A stretch of DNA of 64,000 nt, taken from the NCBI GenBank assembly GCA_002021875.1, contig CP018627.1, positions 3,782,001-3,846,000 on the forward strand, written 5' to 3'. A program made the translations under genes and the position numbers. Each line of letters starts with the position of its first letter. The first letter of the stretch is position 1. Source of the DNA: Streptomyces hygroscopicus (GTDB lineage Bacteria; Actinomycetota; Actinomycetes; Streptomycetales; Streptomycetaceae). The notes beneath the pieces are model-generated. The model saw only the letters and a program-made list of their open reading frames with translations. It searched no databases and was not told the origin of the DNA. Below are positions 5,404-57,933 of this stretch, piece by piece.

Positions 5404-5480
<77 letters not shown>

Positions 5481-14965: not shown

Positions 14966-16597
14966 CTACGCCGCCTCCCCCAGCGCCTCCCACGGCCAGA
15001 CGGTCCGCCCACCGCGGTCGCCGCCACTGCCGCGGTCGCCCTCCGACAGCAGCCCGACCATCGTGAACAGCTTGTCGCTGAAGCCGCCGATCTCGTACCG
15101 GTTCGGCCGGCCGGTGTCGATGGACGTGGCCGCGTAGCCGGTGGTGTTGACGCCGAACACCGGTACCCGCGCCGGAACGGCCTCCGAGACCGGAACGGAC
15201 CGGCCGCCGCGCGCAGGGGCGAACGCCTGCATATCCGAGACGATCACCACCCGGTCGTGGCCGCGGTAGGCCGCCCGCAGCGCCGCCCCCGTCTCCGTGC
15301 CGTGCCCGGCCTCGCCGATCCGCGCGCAGAATCCCTCGATGTCGCGGAGCACCGAACCACCCGGGGGCAGCCGGTGGCCGAAGTGCCCGGAGGCGAAGCC
15401 GACCAGGTCCACCTGGCAGCCGCGGTGCGCGAGCGCGACCCCGAAGAGCGCGCCGATGTCCACATGGCGCACCTGGGAGCGGCCCGAGACCGGCGCCTGC
15501 ATGGAGCCTGAGGTGTCCACGAGCACGAGGGTGCGGCCCGGCAGCGCCGGGACGGCCGCCGTGGCCGCGGTCAGCGCCCGGTCCAGGGCGTGGCCCCAGC
15601 GCAGGGACGGCGCGGCCCGGTACGCGGACAGGAAGCGGTACGGGAACTGACGGGAGCGGGCTACCTCCGCCGGGTCGGCCAGCCGCGCCGCGACCCGCTC
15701 GGCGACCGCGTCCGGCAGCCCGGCCTCGTCGAGGTTGCGCAGGTTGCGCAGCAGCGCCATGTAGCCCATCGAGGGCAGCACGGCCTGCCAGGCCACCGCG
15801 TCCATCGGCCCCTGCAGCCAGCCCGCGAGCGCCTCCCAGGTCATCCCGGCGGCATGGAGCGCGTCGGCGGCGTCCGGCCGCTCCAGCACGGCACGGCGCT
15901 CCCACTGCGGCAGGGCCGTCAGCCGGGCGCGGGCGCGCAGGATGCGCAGCGAGACCGGAGGCGCGGCGTCCCGGTGGTGGCGGCGGTCGATGGCGTGCCG
16001 GAACAGCTCGCTCTGCCACGGCTTTTCGGGGTCCGGGGCGGCGTGCACCAGTTCCAGGACGTCGGCGAAGCGGAAGCCGTGGCTTTCGGTGTCGTGCTTG
16101 AGCAGCGAGCGCTCGGTGTAGAGGCGGCGGGCGGCGTCGGCGAGGCCGCGCTTGACCGGCTTGGGCAGGGCGCGCCCGTGGTGGGCGGTCCAGTAGCCGA
16201 GGAACTCACCGGGCTCGTCGGCGCGCAGACACGCGGCGTCGACGATGCGGCGGTTGCCGCCGTGCAGCCCCGCCGCGAGCCGTGCCGCGACGGCCTCGGC
16301 GGCGGCGACCAGCGACGCGGTGCGCATCTGGGCCTCGCCGCGCAGCCAGGTGATGAAGCGCGCGGTCCAGTCGGCGTCCTCGACGGCGACGGTGCGGACG
16401 AGGGTGCGGAAGCGGTCGTCGCGGTCACCGGAGGACTCGTAGAAGGTCTGCTCGCCGACCATGTTCACCACGGCCAGCAGCACCAGTTCGGACTTGCTGT
16501 CGCGGGTGACGGCGGCGCCGCCCTCATAGGTGGTCGTGGTGGCCATGGTGGTCGTCGTGGCCGTGGCGCGCCGGATGGCCCGGTTGAACTTCGTCAT
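14966..16597 (-). CDS. TROVE-domain RNA-binding protein (Ro60/Rsr-like)
   Basis: 543 residues from ATG 16597. The N-terminal two thirds are a TROVE module, the HEAT-like ring of Ro60, which encircles the ends of misfolded RNAs and binds Y RNAs on its outer face. Recognisable segments are SELVLLAVVNMVGEQTFYES and FITWLRGEAQMRTASLVAAAE. The C-terminus is a von Willebrand factor A domain with the MIDAS motif LVDTSGSM, and IVSDMQAFAP for further metal contacts. In Deinococcus and Salmonella the bacterial Ro (Rsr) works with PNPase or other nucleases in RNA decay and is tethered by Y RNA. Here the gene is preceded by a 420-bp non-coding stretch containing two structured RNA candidates (16653-16867). 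RtcB, often a neighbour in other bacteria, is not in the window. Confidence 0.9.
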   Translation of the reverse strand: MTKFNRAIRRATATTTTMATTTTYEGGAAVTRDSKSELVLLAVVNMVGEQTFYESSGDRDDRFRTLVRTVAVEDADWTARFITWLRGEAQMRTASLVAAAEAVAARLAAGLHGGNRRIVDAACLRADEPGEFLGYWTAHHGRALPKPVKRGLADAARRLYTERSLLKHDTESHGFRFADVLELVHAAPDPEKPWQSELFRHAIDRRHHRDAAPPVSLRILRARARLTALPQWERRAVLERPDAADALHAAGMTWEALAGWLQGPMDAVAWQAVLPSMGYMALLRNLRNLDEAGLPDAVAERVAARLADPAEVARSRQFPYRFLSAYRAAPSLRWGHALDRALTAATAAVPALPGRTLVLVDTSGSMQAPVSGRSQVRHVDIGALFGVALAHRGCQVDLVGFASGHFGHRLPPGGSVLRDIEGFCARIGEAGHGTETGAALRAAYRGHDRVVIVSDMQAFAPARGGRSVPVSEAVPARVPVFGVNTTGYAATSIDTGRPNRYEIGGFSDKLFTMVGLLSEGDRGSGGDRGGRTVWPWEALGEAA

Positions 16598-16652
16598 GCG
16601 GTCATGCCTCTCCCCCGAGTGGGCATAGGAGGGAGGCGGCGCACCGGTGCGT

Positions 16653-16731
16653 CGGCAGCGCCTGAGGTCGAAAGTGGGCGGCGGACTGTTCTGGAAAGGA
16701 AGTAACCGCGGCCCGCGCACCAGGCGCTCCG
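16653..16731 (-). ncRNA. second structured RNA element before TROVE gene (Y-RNA-like or leader)
   Basis: On the minus strand C16731-G16721 pairs with C16664-G16653: eleven pairs with one bulged G (16656). Inside, G16714-G16706 pairs with C16684-C16676 (eight of nine). The top of the inner helix is followed by CGGTTACTTC (16708-16699). This 10-mer also appears at the same place, helix edge into loop, in the upstream candidate Y RNA (16836-16827). It may be a second Y-like RNA, as in yrlA/yrlB pairs, or a structured leader of the TROVE message. Confidence 0.45.
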
Positions 16732-16733
16732 AT

Positions 16734-16867
16734 GCCGTGCGCGCGCCTCCCGAGATCAGAGTCGACGACGGTACGTTTCCCACCCCGCGCCGGCGGAGTG
16801 TTTCAGGAATCGAACCCAAATCGACCGAAGTAACCGTCGTCTTCGCACCGGGAGGTGCGTTCACGGC
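16734..16867 (-). ncRNA. candidate Y RNA (YrlA-like) with tRNA-like domain
   Basis: Read on the minus strand, the two ends pair over a long distance. G16867-G16862 pairs with C16739-C16734 (6 bp). After a 2x2 loop, C16859-G16849 pairs with C16752-G16742 (10 of 11). After an asymmetric internal loop, G16841-T16833 pairs with A16772-C16764 (9 bp). The apical domain has a T-arm-like hairpin whose loop TTCGATT is closed by G-C pairs, matching the tRNA T-loop consensus G-TTCRANT-C (16815-16807). A second hairpin follows at 16800-16781. A promoter (16901-16872) predicts transcription starting at the base of the outer helix. Bacterial YrlA RNAs combine an end-paired Ro-binding stem with a tRNA-like module and lie next to the Ro gene. 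I did not find a clear match to the classical Y-RNA Ro-binding sequence. Confidence 0.6.
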
Positions 16868-16871
16868 TACG

Positions 16872-16901
16872 ACAGTAGGGGGCCCGTTCCTCGGCCGTCA
16901 T
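16872..16901 (-). promoter_or_regulatory. promoter of the Y RNA candidate
   Basis: Minus strand ATGACG (16901-16896), 18-bp spacer, TACTGT (16877-16872). The -10 fits TAnnnT and the -35 matches TTGACA at four of six positions. Transcription should start around 16865-16867, exactly where the predicted RNA helix begins. Confidence 0.5.
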
Positions 16902-16935
16902 CCGGTTTTCTCCGCCCGGAGGACCGCGGACCACA

Positions 16936-16973
16936 ACACCGCGGCCCGGAGCGGGTGCTCCGGGCCGCGGTGT
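16936..16973 (-). terminator. strong hairpin terminator of the betaine operon
   Basis: A 17-bp perfect stem (16936-16952 with 16957-16973) and a GGGT loop, 44 bp past the betaine transporter stop. It also separates that operon from the Y RNA/TROVE unit. Confidence 0.85.
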
Positions 16974-17017
16974 GTGCGTGGTGTCCGCGGTGGGTCAGCA
17001 GACCACCTGGTGGCAGG

Positions 17018-19636
17018 TCAGGAAGCCACCGGCGCCATCTTGTCGACGATGCCGGGGTGAGCGTCCATCCACTTCTGAACGCCCTTCTCCTCGTTGCCCT
17101 TACCGGCGTCCTGGATGGCCGCCTCCAGGCTCCCGAGTTCCTTCTCGGTCATGTGCCACTTCTTGAGCCACCCGTTGAACTCGGGGAACTTCTCCGGGAA
17201 GGACTTGTTGGCGAGCGTATGGAGCTGGTTGCTGGCCCCGAACGACTGCTTCGGGTCGGCCAGCTTGGTGAGCTTGTACTTGCTGTACGCCCAGTGCGGG
17301 GACCACAGGACGACGGCCACCGGCTCCTGCTTGGCGTACGAGCGCTCCAGCTGCGCCAGCATCGCCGGCGAGGAGCCGTCGCTGACCTGGTACTCCTTGT
17401 CCAGGCCGTACGCCTTCAGCACCTTGCTCTTGAGTATCTTCATCTCGCCGGTGCCCGGCTCGATGCCGATGATCTTCCCCTTGAAGGTGGACGACTTGCC
17501 CTTCAGGTCCGCCAGCGACTTCACGTCCTTGACGTAGGACGGCACCGCGATCTCCAGGGAGGTCTTGTCGTACCACGACCCGACGTCGACCAGATTCTTC
17601 TTGTATCTGTCCCAGTACTGTTTCTGGGCGACCGGTAGCCAGCCGTCGAACTCGACATCGACCTGCCCGGTGCTCATTCCGGTGAACATGGAGCCGACGT
17701 CGTACTGCTTGATCGACGGCTTGTAGCCACGCCGCTCGAGGACGTTCTTCCACAGGTAGGTGGTGGCGACGTCCTCGTCCCACGGGAAGTAGCCGATCTT
17801 CGGCGCGGCTCCGGCGTCCTTGCCCTTCTGCTCGCCGCCGGGCACCGGGGCCAGCTTGTTGACCAGGCTGGGGTTCTTCTTGAGCCAGGCGCGCACGCCC
17901 TCCTGCTCCTTGCCCTTACCGGCGTCCTGGATCGCCGCCTCCAGGCTGGTGAGCTGCTTCTCGTCCAGCTTGAAGTTCTTGATCCACTTGGCGACCTGCG
18001 GGTTGTCCTTGGAGAAGCCCTTGCGCGCGAGGGAGTCGATGCGATCGCCCTTGCCGAAGGCGCCCTTGGGGTCCTTCAGCTTGATGAGGTTGTACTTGTT
18101 GTACGCCCAGTGCGGGGACCACAGGGTGACCGCGATCGGCTCCTGCTTGGCGTAGGAGCGGTCCAGCTGGGAGAGCATGGCCGCGGTGGAGCCCTTGACC
18201 AGGGAGAAGTTCTTGTTCAGGCCGTAGCCCGGCATGACCTTGTCCTGCATCAGCTTCATCTCACCGGCACCGGGCTCGATGCCGACGATCTTCTTCTTGA
18301 AGGTGCCGGACTTCTTCTCCAGGTCCTCCAGGGTCTTGACGCCCTTGACGTACGAGGGCACCGCGACCTCCAGGGAGGTGGGGCCGTACCAGGAGCCGAG
18401 GTTCTCCAGCTTGTCCTTGTACTTCGCCCAGTACGAGGCGTGGGTGGTGGGCAGCCAGGAGTCCGTCTCGAAGTCGATGTTGCCCGCGGCCATACCGGTG
18501 TACAGCGCGCCGACGTCGTACGACTGGACCTTGGGCTTGAAGCCGCGCTGCTCCAGGAGCTCCTTCCACAGGAAGGTGGAGGCGACGCCCTCGTCCCAGT
18601 TGATGTAGCCGATGTTGACCGACTGGCCCTTGCCGACGTTGGCGGAGACCTCGGGTCCCTTTTCGTCGTCGCCGAACATGCTCATGCCGCCGGCGACGAG
18701 TGCCAGGACGACGACGCCGACCATGGCGACGGAGGTCGCGGGGCGCCAGTGCAGCACCTTGAGGCCGCTGACCGCCTTGGCCTTCTCCTTGGCCAGCGCA
18801 CGGCGGGCCAGCGGGGAGACGCGCTGGTTGAGCGCGCTGGTCATCCGGTCCAGGTACATGGCCAGGATGACCACCGCGATACCGCCCTCGAAGCCCATGG
18901 CGACGTCGACGGAGCTGATCGCCTGGAAGACGGTGGAGCCCAGGCCCTCGGCGCCGACCATGCCGGCGATGACGACCATGGACAGCGCCAGCATGATCAC
19001 CTGGTTGACGCCCGCCATGATGGTGGGCAGGGCCAGCGGGAGCTGGACGCGCAGGAGGGTGCGGCGCGGATGGGTGCCGAAGGCGTCGGCCGCCTCGACC
19101 AGCTCCGCATCCACCTGCCGGATGCCCAGTTCCGTCATGCGGACGCCCGGGGGCATCGAGAAGATGACGGTGGCGACGACGCCGGGGACCACCCCGAGGC
19201 CGAAGAAGAAGATGCCGGGGATCAGGTAGACGAAGGCGGGCATCGTCTGCATGAAGTCCAGCACCGGGCGGATCACGGCGCTCACCGCGCGGTTGCGCGA
19301 GGCCCAGATGCCCAGCGGCACCGCGAACACGATGGTGATCACACCGGCGACCAGCACCAGTGCGAGGGTGTTCATCGCCTCGCCCCACAACTCGATCGAG
19401 TCGATGAGGGCGAATCCCAGGAAGGCGAGCACGGCGGGCAGCAGCCCGCGCAGCCACCAGGCGAGCAGCGCCAGGATGCCCGCGAACAGCAGCGGCTCGG
19501 GGCCGCTGAGCACGGTGTTCAGCCCGTCGTACATGCCCTGGACGACGCTGGAGATGAAATCGAAGAGCCAGCTCAGATTGTCTCGGAGCCAGTTGACGCC
19601 GGAGTTGATCCAGTCGCCGAGCTGAAGTCTAGGCAC
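17018..19636 (-). CDS. glycine betaine ABC permease fused to two substrate-binding domains
   Basis: 872 residues. Residues about 1-290 are a ProW/OpuAB-type permease with hydrophobic helices and the EAA-like loop VEAADAFGTHPRRTLLRVQLP. A further membrane segment near 305-325 leads into two tandem OpuAC-type binding domains outside the cell. Domain one begins VNIGYINWDEGVASTFLWK and domain two IGYFPWDEDVATTYLWK. Both share FETDSWLP or VEFDGWLP, SYAKQEP and LWSPHWAYNKYNL-like segments with the tryptophans that cage quaternary amines. The transporter takes up betaine or proline for osmoprotection. Permease-receptor fusions (OpuABC) are known; the duplicated receptor is less usual. GTG 19636 overlaps the stop of the ATPase gene by 8 bp, so translation is coupled. 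Confidence 0.93.
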   Translation of the reverse strand: MPRLQLGDWINSGVNWLRDNLSWLFDFISSVVQGMYDGLNTVLSGPEPLLFAGILALLAWWLRGLLPAVLAFLGFALIDSIELWGEAMNTLALVLVAGVITIVFAVPLGIWASRNRAVSAVIRPVLDFMQTMPAFVYLIPGIFFFGLGVVPGVVATVIFSMPPGVRMTELGIRQVDAELVEAADAFGTHPRRTLLRVQLPLALPTIMAGVNQVIMLALSMVVIAGMVGAEGLGSTVFQAISSVDVAMGFEGGIAVVILAMYLDRMTSALNQRVSPLARRALAKEKAKAVSGLKVLHWRPATSVAMVGVVVLALVAGGMSMFGDDEKGPEVSANVGKGQSVNIGYINWDEGVASTFLWKELLEQRGFKPKVQSYDVGALYTGMAAGNIDFETDSWLPTTHASYWAKYKDKLENLGSWYGPTSLEVAVPSYVKGVKTLEDLEKKSGTFKKKIVGIEPGAGEMKLMQDKVMPGYGLNKNFSLVKGSTAAMLSQLDRSYAKQEPIAVTLWSPHWAYNKYNLIKLKDPKGAFGKGDRIDSLARKGFSKDNPQVAKWIKNFKLDEKQLTSLEAAIQDAGKGKEQEGVRAWLKKNPSLVNKLAPVPGGEQKGKDAGAAPKIGYFPWDEDVATTYLWKNVLERRGYKPSIKQYDVGSMFTGMSTGQVDVEFDGWLPVAQKQYWDRYKKNLVDVGSWYDKTSLEIAVPSYVKDVKSLADLKGKSSTFKGKIIGIEPGTGEMKILKSKVLKAYGLDKEYQVSDGSSPAMLAQLERSYAKQEPVAVVLWSPHWAYSKYKLTKLADPKQSFGASNQLHTLANKSFPEKFPEFNGWLKKWHMTEKELGSLEAAIQDAGKGNEEKGVQKWMDAHPGIVDKMAPVAS

Positions 19637-57200: not shown

Positions 57201-57726
57201 GCAGGTCCTGGGTGGTCTCCACCAGGAGGGCGTCCGCGCCACCGGCGATCATGCCCTCGGCATTGGCCTGGTAGGCGTCGCGGAGGGTGACATAGGGGGC
57301 GTGGCCGAGGGTGGGCAGCTTGGTGCCGGGGCCCATGGAGCCCAGCACCCAGCGCTGGCGTCCGTCGGCGGCGAACTCGTCGGCGACCTCACGGGCGATC
57401 CGGGCGCCGGCCTCGGAGAGCTCGTGGACGCGGTCGGGGATGTCGTACTCACCGAGCGCCGCGTGGTTGGCGCCGAAGGTGTTGGTCTCGACGCAGTCCA
57501 CCCCGGCGGCGTAGTACTCCGCGTGGACCGAGCGGACGATGTCCGGGCGGGTGATGTTGAGGATCTCGTTGCAGCCCTCGAGCTGCTGGAAGTCGTCGAG
57601 ACTGGGGTCCTGCGCCTGGAGCATCGTCCCCATCGCGCCGTCGGCGACCACCACGCGGGTGGCCAGTGCTTCGCGGAGCGCTTCGGCTCGGGCGGCGGAT
57701 GTGGGCGATGGCGTATGCGAGGCCAT
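54220..57726 (-). CDS. metH: cobalamin-dependent methionine synthase
   Basis: 1168 residues from ATG 57726, with GGGAG 8 bp upstream. The domain order is homocysteine-binding (DGAMGTMLQ start, zinc cysteines in NCATGP and GGCCGTTPEHL, to about 330), methyltetrahydrofolate-binding (FLAIGERTNANGSKKFREA-type segment, from about 355), a B12 cap and Rossmann domain with the cobalt-ligating His in DVHDIGK, and a SAM activation domain at the C-terminus (YFRPE-type FFRPEESGETD, ELHGLSVQLAEALAEYWHARVR). It transfers the methyl group of methyltetrahydrofolate to homocysteine. I looked for a cobalamin riboswitch in the roughly 230-bp leader and did not find one. Confidence 0.97.
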   Translation of the reverse strand: MASHTPSPTSAARAEALREALATRVVVADGAMGTMLQAQDPSLDDFQQLEGCNEILNITRPDIVRSVHAEYYAAGVDCVETNTFGANHAALGEYDIPDRVHELSEAGARIAREVADEFAADGRQRWVLGSMGPGTKLPTLGHAPYVTLRDAYQANAEGMIAGGADALLVETTQDLLQTKAAILGARRALDATGANLPLICSVTVETTGTMLLGSEIGAALTALEPLGIDMIGLNCATGPAEMSEHLRHLARHSRIPLSCMPNAGLPVLGKDGAHYPLTPGELADAQETFVREYGLSLVGGCCGTTPEHLRQVVERVRGLAPTERSPRPEPGAASLYQTVPFRQDTSYLAIGERTNANGSKKFREAMLEARWDDCVEIAREQIREGAHLLDLCVDYVGRDGVADMEELAGRFATASTLPIVLDSTEVDVIRAGLEKLGGRAVINSVNYEDGDGPESRFAKVTRLAQEHGAALIALTIDEEGQARTPEHKVEIAERLIADLTGNWGIHESDILIDTLTFTICTGQEESRKDGIATIEAIRELKRRHPDVQTTLGLSNISFGLNPAARIVLNSVFLDECVKAGLDSAIVHASKILPIARFEEEQVKTALDLIYDRRAEGYDPLQKLMGLFEGATAKSLKAGKAEELAALPLDERLKRRIIDGERNGLEADLDEALQERPALEIVNETLLDGMKVVGELFGSGQMQLPFVLQSAEVMKTAVAHLEPHMEKSDDEGKGTIVLATVRGDVHDIGKNLVDIILSNNGYNVVNLGIKQPVSAILEAAEEHRADVIGMSGLLVKSTVIMKENLEELNQRKLAAQFPVILGGAALTRAYVEQDLHEIYEGEVRYARDAFEGLRLMDALIAVKRGVPGAALPELRQRRVPQRAAQVREPEPDEGPARSDVSTDNPLPTPPFWGTRVVKGIQQADYASWLDEGALFKGQWGLKQARTGEGPGYEELVESEGRPRLRGWLDRLHTGNLLEAAVVYGYFPCVSKGDDLVLLNEDGSERTRFTFPRQRRGRRLCLADFFRPEESGETDVVGLQVVTVGSKIGEATAELFAADSYRDYLELHGLSVQLAEALAEYWHARVRAELGFDGEDPSEMEDMFALKYRGARFSLGYGACPDLEDRAKIADLLRPERIGVKLSEEFQLHPEQSTDAIVIHHPEAKYFNAR

Positions 57727-57933
57727 GGATGTGCTCCCTGGAGTGCGACGGCTGTCGGCTTTGCGCCCTCCCCTGGGGACGGCGCACCACGCCAGCGTAG
57801 CTGCCAGTGGTCGTTTCACGATGGTCGTTCCATCACCCGGGACGGGGGGCGGCCGGCCGGCCCTCGGCAGGCCCTTGATCGTCGACACATGGCCTTGCGG
57901 TACCGCGAGGTCGACATGGACCGATAGTGTTCA

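Follow-up and report, generated by a model that had tools for sequence, protein, structure and literature searches.

Does the TROVE gene in this part of the Streptomyces hygroscopicus genome come with its own Y RNA, and what is the tRNA-like element that such an RNA would carry at its tip? The window, by which we mean the whole 64,000-nucleotide stretch that was analysed, encodes a relative of the Ro60/Rsr proteins, and the original prediction assigned to this protein one Y RNA of 134 nt (16867 to 16734, minus strand). The Y RNAs of Salmonella and Deinococcus are described as RNAs bound by Rsr (PMC8394870, PMC4726728), and the tRNA-like head that Y RNAs carry elsewhere is described as binding PNPase and as a substrate of TruB and DusA (PMC8394870, PMC4726728, PMC7790460). 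From the sequence comparisons below it is highly probable that 16860–16743 encodes a Y RNA, and that transcription from a promoter around 16901–16872 yields it along with a second Y RNA (16732–16655) and the TROVE mRNA; both of these small structured RNAs very probably partner the adjacent Ro relative. One of them carries a cut-down tRNA imitation and so offers a natural test of which part of the head of bacterial Y RNAs matters, in a genus that is genetically tractable.

The TROVE locus and its promoter-like element

Y RNA 1, Y RNA 2 and the TROVE gene follow each other in this transcription order on the same (minus) strand, the 3' ends of the two RNAs lying 146 and 58 nt, respectively, from the TROVE ATG:

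16896–16901, minus strand: -35-like hexamer ATGACG, kept in 8/8 clade members at 17–18 nt from the -10
16872–16877, minus strand: -10-like hexamer TACTGT, with a predicted start at about 16867–16863
16743–16860, minus strand: Y RNA 1, conserved body, matched by covariance models R1 and R2 (below)
16849–16858, minus strand: outer Ro-type helix, 5' strand, pairing with 16752–16743 with one A-C mismatch
16833–16841, minus strand: inner helix, 5' strand GACGACGGT, pairing with 16772–16764
16802–16820, minus strand: T-arm, stem TTTGGG/CCTGAA, loop TTCGATT (16814–16808), from the RNAalifold consensus of the eight clade members and the R2 T-arm alignment
16781–16800, minus strand: acceptor-like hairpin CACTCCGC-CGGC-GCGGGGTG, with two two-sided pair changes in the clade, aligned to the R2 acceptor stem
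16764–16772, minus strand: inner helix, 3' strand ACCGTCGTC, partner of 16841–16833
16743–16752, minus strand: outer Ro-type helix, 3' strand, pairing with 16858–16849
16655–16732, minus strand: Y RNA 2, simple hairpin without a tRNA-like head, matched by R1 and R2
16607–16616, minus strand: ribosome-binding-site-like GGGGGAGAGG preceding the TROVE start, assigned from sequence
14966–16597, minus strand: TROVE/VWA protein of 543 aa, a Ro60/Rsr relative with a DTSGSM motif (ATG at 16597; PF05731)

The protein matches PF05731 with E 6.7e-14 over profile positions 290–352 of 442, and a profile of 18 TROVE sequences, the window's included, finds the TROVE-domain chains of 9kop/9l5y (E 1.4e-39), Ro60 (1yvp, 1.8e-7) and Rsr (2nvo, 3.3e-6). 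Its DTSGSM motif is presumably the metal site. The TROVE frame remains open upstream as far as a GTG at 16864, inside Y RNA 1 (632 aa; window 16864–16598, minus strand), and for this reason automatic TROVE start calls may be misplaced inside Y RNAs.

A promoter had been proposed here with TACTGT at 16877–16872 as its -10 and an 18-nt spacer; these are in the sequence, the hexamer upstream being ATGACG, and the position of this promoter-like pair predicts a transcription start close to 16865, in agreement with the earlier placement. The arrangement ATGACG-N17/18-TANNNT stands ahead of Y RNA 1 in all eight members of the window's clade, and TANNNT occurs 12–29 nt before the first Y RNA core motif in 86 of 90 loci, spread over all lineages, whereas 200 base shuffles of these stretches averaged 8.6 loci and never exceeded 17. 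The window's own pair falls below the 9-of-12 consensus rule of our promoter scan, and a terminator scan of 16500–17100 gave no hit. The upstream neighbour on the minus strand is an ORF that, judged by eye, resembles a glycine-betaine-type transporter, and a nucleotide search of a plasmid collection with 16600–16900 gave zero matches.

Conservation of the Y RNA stem

The predicted 134-nt stretch with three helices is present in the sequence and has a folding energy of -69 kcal/mol, while its shuffles average -53.0 (sd 3.9; z -4.09, 0/200 as good); for the conserved body 16860–16743 alone z is -2.42, with 3/200 shuffles as good. Comparison with relatives separates the three helices that had been proposed as one stack. 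The two main ones are supported by a 70-sequence alignment. The outermost 6-bp helix is the weakest, since all six pairs are present in the window only, five of its seven clade relatives form five pairs (once with a G-U and once at a shifted register), and the helix fails in L003 and L096; it is not upheld as a conserved element.

The stem alignment holds 70 Y-B-type sequences (the kinds of copy are described below), among them the window and its seven clade relatives, and has 30 invariant columns. In the outer and inner helices 88.0% of the cells are paired, compared with 37–50% when the partner is slid by 1–3 columns. The compensatory changes that the original prediction proposed to look for are there: two-sided changes affect 47 cells, where shuffles average 21.4, and the covariation score lies above all 500 shuffles. 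Counted by pair, the five pairs with two-sided changes and the 15 further pair types are not above shuffles (378/500 and 456/500 as high, respectively). Among the 19 pairs, three are open in many of the sequences, namely outer 5–125 (in 67/70), inner 25–102 (50/70) and outer 4–126 (24/70). Two-sided changes affect four of the nine inner-helix pairs, one of them the often unpaired 25–102, and the switches are G-C/A-U and C-G/U-A. Besides the two conserved helices, the internal-loop sequence is invariant; we take it to resemble that of vertebrate Y RNAs.

Two covariance models were then available for searches. R1, built from the 70 Y-B-type sequences, matches Y RNA 1 (16860–16743) with 74.0 bits and E 1.4e-14, a score obtained with the RNA's own sequence in the training set. 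Y RNA 2 lies outside that training set and still reaches 53.8 bits (E 5.3e-10), and the next match in the window after both RNAs has only 20.0 bits. R2 rests on 42 YrlA-type copies from other lineages, with the window's clade left out. In the 12-Mb genome its top match is Y RNA 1 (57.4 bits, E 8.6e-9), and its second-best is Y RNA 2 (47.9 bits, E 1.1e-6). The alignment of Y RNA 1 spans the full model (positions 1–139); T-arm and acceptor are matched, and deletions fall at the D-arm and at some linker positions. The alignment behind R2 shows two-sided changes in 19/33 pairs, largely one Y-A versus Y-C difference, and is not used as independent evidence. The Y RNA identity is thus strongly supported by sequence, and it extends to a hairpin that the original prediction overlooked in speaking of "the" Y RNA of this Ro protein: there are two, the other being 16732–16655, whose fold alone is unremarkable (z -1.52, 16/200 shuffles as good).

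With E up to 10, R2 gives 14 matches in the window's genome, led by the two window RNAs; the third and fifth lie in tandem tRNA arrays (Asn-Asn, Phe-Asp) and nine others have E 0.288 or more. The idea that a full YrlA elsewhere in this genome serves as the true tRNA mimic was rejected, as R2 ranks the window RNAs first. The fourth match (L142, G000:C1:8418111-8418184, minus strand; 33.4 bits, positions 40–112) is a permuted-tRNA-like piece without a Ro stem; its fold is no better than shuffles (z -0.87), and G356 and G383 have matches of equal score and range.

Y RNAs and TROVE genes across the genus

A TROVE protein search over 150 genomes of the genus gave a match in 84, a few of them only fragments. 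R1 finds a match in 81 of the 84 genomes with TROVE and in 0 of the 66 without (the genomes are related, so that a Fisher value for this co-occurrence overstates the independent evidence). Y RNAs appear on the locus scan in two of the three exceptions, G044 and G059 (E 8.7e-6 and 4.5e-6), and the third, G047, has only a 64-residue TROVE piece. The expectation that the RNA is conserved upstream of orthologous TROVE genes is thereby borne out, its presence tracking TROVE genome by genome.

Reading upstream of 91 TROVE loci (30 from the protein search, 57 by coordinates and four clade members by DNA), and counting Y-stem copies by their 5' motif pattern, we find three copies at 40 loci, two at 37, one at four and none at ten, so that 77/91 loci have two or three. 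The copies are of three kinds: Y-A with a permuted tRNA head, Y-B as a bare hairpin, and Y-C mostly with a permuted tRNA head; by stricter patterns all three kinds are present at 31 of the 91 loci, B and C at 19, A and B at 11. The Y-B copies of L005, L017 and L073 are shrunk to about 40 nt, with the outer helix and a short loop and the inner helix gone. At the ten motif-less loci a GATGCG core replaces GGTGCG, and R1 finds one bare hairpin each (45–59 bits). We call these the second group, a name defined by the core, with no tree behind it; six are from genomes that also have a main-type TROVE locus and four from genomes with this locus only. The genomes whose sole TROVE match is of the second group (G038, G041, G143 and G147) yield a single R1 match each, and R2 matches none of them over its full length at E 0.01; on these model searches they are apparently without a tRNA-like Y RNA.

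Over 296 genomes of the phylum R2 has a match at E 0.01 in 189, a count that is no measure of Y RNAs, because many of the matches cover only positions about 26–112 and those in L151 and L152, outside the genus, lie in tRNA arrays. With the window's TROVE protein as query, 10 of the 296 genomes match, seven of them within the genus, and the protein is rare outside it. One outside genome, G440, has a YrlA-type RNA with T-arm and D-arm upstream of TROVE (R2, 56.5 bits); R1 gives no match at three extra-genus TROVE loci, G440 among them.

The tRNA-like head of Y RNA 1

The window's clade comprises eight loci. In the TROVE tree its proteins form a group apart from the 14 remaining rows (100/100, G297 and L014 being flagged as long branches), and their identities to the window's protein are 97, 93, 87, 87, 85, 81 and 68%, the last over 495 residues. 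The T-loop pattern is found in 8/8 clade members and the D-arm pattern in none, with 240 nt searched in each. At main-lineage loci T-loop and D-arm are both present in 71/73, and neither is found at any of the ten second-group loci. The T-loop element G-TTCGATT-C had been recognised correctly, with its loop at 16814–16808, and it presumably fits the UUCRANY pattern; of the tRNA-type modifications that belong to YrlA, pseudouridine and dihydrouridine, the latter would find no D-loop here. The tRNA-like domain proposed around it stands in part: there is a T-arm and a closed acceptor hairpin, and, the D-arm being missing, the mimic is partial. Judged from its sequence, Y RNA 1 carries a YrlA-type head in reduced form.

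With the eight clade sequences as input and no structure imposed, RNAalifold recovers both main helices, outer and inner, as well as T-arm and acceptor hairpin; folded by itself, the window's Y RNA 1 favours a different apical pairing over the T-arm. The acceptor hairpin is absent in L096 and has two pairs with two-sided changes, every lettered cell being paired. In the T-stem the exchanges are G-U/A-U and U-G/C-G, and L096 has the only broken pair. Covariation in these eight sequences is weak, as 47–49 of 500 shuffles come out as high (49 for the two-sided count). Seven of the clade members thus have T-arm plus acceptor, and the head of L096 (genome G297) is a T-arm only. Elsewhere G297 has a complete YrlA-type RNA (R2, 106.5 bits) with its own -10-like TACAGT, and another at 56.8 bits. 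Apart from the two RNAs of this locus, R2 matches nothing over its full length at E 0.01 in six of the seven genomes with T-arm plus acceptor; the seventh, G055, has another such match on a separate contig (50.9 bits). That YrlA-type RNA (L187, G055:C2:144121-144263) lies beside a 263-aa ORF which by eye looks RNA ligase-like.

Is such a head still useful? Y RNA 1 could be real and its head a functionless remnant of a tRNA mimic, a reading that we consider rather unlikely. The head sizes do look like steps of loss, from T-arm, acceptor and D-arm to T-arm and acceptor, to the T-arm only of G297 and to none at all (Y-B and the ten GATGCG-type loci), and since ten of 91 loci have a bare hairpin only, a head is dispensable at some loci. 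However, all eight clade members, with TROVE proteins up to 32% apart, retain the T-loop together with both G-C pairs that close it, and pairing in the acceptor hairpin is preserved through the two-sided changes, small as the numbers are. The D-arm-less clade, standing beside relatives with full, T-arm-only and no heads, offers a natural set of deletions with which to look for the partner.

Heads of another kind occur in other lineages. An alternative D-arm, TGGCGGAA, is found in 16/54 Y-C copies (L005, L007, L010, L017, L020, L025, L032, L034, L036, L045, L048, L057, L062, L066, L073 and L077). The 14 aligned copies of the TGGCGGAA type share a segment before the T-arm, which in most looks in the sequence alignment like a class II variable arm, and these Y-C heads presumably resemble tRNA-Leu.

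Y RNA copies away from TROVE genes

About 22 R1 matches in the 150 genomes occur apart from the TROVE match of the same genome; in the window's genome R1 at E 0.1 matches at this locus only. Of the off-locus matches, 14 were read in stretches of 4–4.5 kb each, and two further sites adjoin TROVE fragments. A TROVE match at E 0.01 is missing from all 14, the TROVE genes of these genomes lying elsewhere. Nine of the 14 Y RNAs (L124–L131 and L133) immediately precede priA, in the same orientation; the PriA of L128 matches NCBIfam NF011452 with 1141.7 bits and the other eight are 72–87% identical to it. The remaining five (L123, L132, L134, L135 and L138) have a Y RNA match and neither a TROVE nor a PriA match within their 4–4.5 kb. 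As priA is the gene of the replication-restart helicase, it would be striking if Y RNAs were connected with that process.

These copies bear on whether the RNAs act apart from the TROVE message at all. Both structures could instead be nothing other than the leader of the TROVE mRNA, which would bind the TROVE protein and shut off its own synthesis, with no free Y RNA formed; this would suit two RNAs placed on the same strand between the promoter-like pair and the TROVE start, with no terminator in 16500–17100. We nevertheless regard it as improbable that the role is purely in cis, because Y RNA copies occur off-locus: 14 of the 16 stretches carrying similar RNAs have no TROVE match, and G297 adds a complete YrlA-type copy with its own TACAGT. 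The Salmonella and Deinococcus relatives also speak against it, since they are described as Rsr-bound RNAs (PMC8394870, PMC4726728). A chance hairpin or tRNA pseudogene beside TROVE, for which one could cite the ready folding of G+C-rich sequence and the T-loop in the apical part, has practically nothing left to recommend it, being refuted by the relatives (conservation and covariation, 81/84 versus 0/66, matches to the models), and ARAGORN finds no tRNA at the Y RNA 1 site.

Proposed mechanism

Returning to two Y RNAs that partner the Ro relative, both would be transcribed with the TROVE gene from the one promoter-like pair and, by analogy with known Y RNAs, would be cut out of the TROVE leader; their stems would bind the Ro ring, and the bound RNAs would gate which RNAs the ring accepts. 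The step that we regard as least certain concerns the head, which may recruit a partner through the T-arm alone, for example PNPase (as in D. radiodurans) or an enzyme that acts on the T-arm, such as TruB. Since the elbow between D-loop and T-loop cannot form without a D-arm, such a partner would have to read the T-arm by itself, and DusA would find no target on Y RNA 1, the D-loop being missing. We tentatively propose, as a possibility, that the head in this clade is a stripped tRNA mimic of which the T-arm alone is recognised by a partner of the Ro particle. The Y RNAs encoded in trans, including the nine before priA, and the class II-like heads would allow a wider arrangement, in which one Ro ring is perhaps served by exchangeable heads with different partners.

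Comparison with known Y RNAs

Y RNA 1 shares with YrlA (Rfam RF02553, Salmonella; PMC8394870) a long terminal stem beside a Ro/Rsr gene and the permuted order of T-arm followed by acceptor hairpin. It differs in that the D-arm after the acceptor stem is missing, and the second RNA of the window is a bare hairpin. We therefore rejected filing Y RNA 1 as YrlA, because it has no D-arm and scores no RF02553 match at E 10. At that threshold the window locus also has no match to Y_RNA (RF00019), the Rfam search returning ten chance-level matches to other families, of which sR55 (plus strand, E 7.5) overlaps Y RNA 1. Among ten relative loci scanned, out of the 30 then in the set, eight match RF02553 (E 5.6e-7 to 7.4e-3), their 30.9–45.1 bits all below the gathering score of 69, and there is no match in L003, L004 or the window. 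Streptomyces Ro particles are probably under-annotated, since no scanned Y RNA reaches the Rfam cut-off for YrlA.

The D. radiodurans Y RNA that works with Rsr and PNPase (RYPER; PMC8394870, PMC4726728) is likewise the Y RNA of a Ro-type protein, and by this likeness the window's Y RNAs would be expected to tether and gate; the head of Y RNA 1 differs in being a T-arm plus an acceptor hairpin. With vertebrate Y RNAs (RF00019) the window RNAs share the Ro partner and the stem architecture, but they have no match to that family, and the vertebrate RNAs have no tRNA-like head. The other Streptomyces arrays share the Ro-type stem, the GGUGCG core, the promoter-like element and the position before TROVE, and they differ in having T-arm plus D-arm (71/73 main-lineage loci) and, in some, class II-like heads.

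Chen et al. in 2014 reportedly described probable Y RNAs next to Ro in over 250 species, every species having one or more copies of the tRNA-like kind, and Streptomyces Y RNAs may already be listed there. In the open-licence literature we found no paper on a Y RNA with Streptomyces and TROVE or Ro60, and nothing on YrlA with 'D arm'. Nowhere in that literature did we meet a head lacking the D-arm, which of these features was the one searched by name, nor heads of class II type or Y RNAs preceding priA. Elsewhere in the window, the minus strand carries a Streptomyces-metH RNA at 57724–57845 (Rfam match, 100.3 bits) and a tRNA-Pro at 5404–5480.
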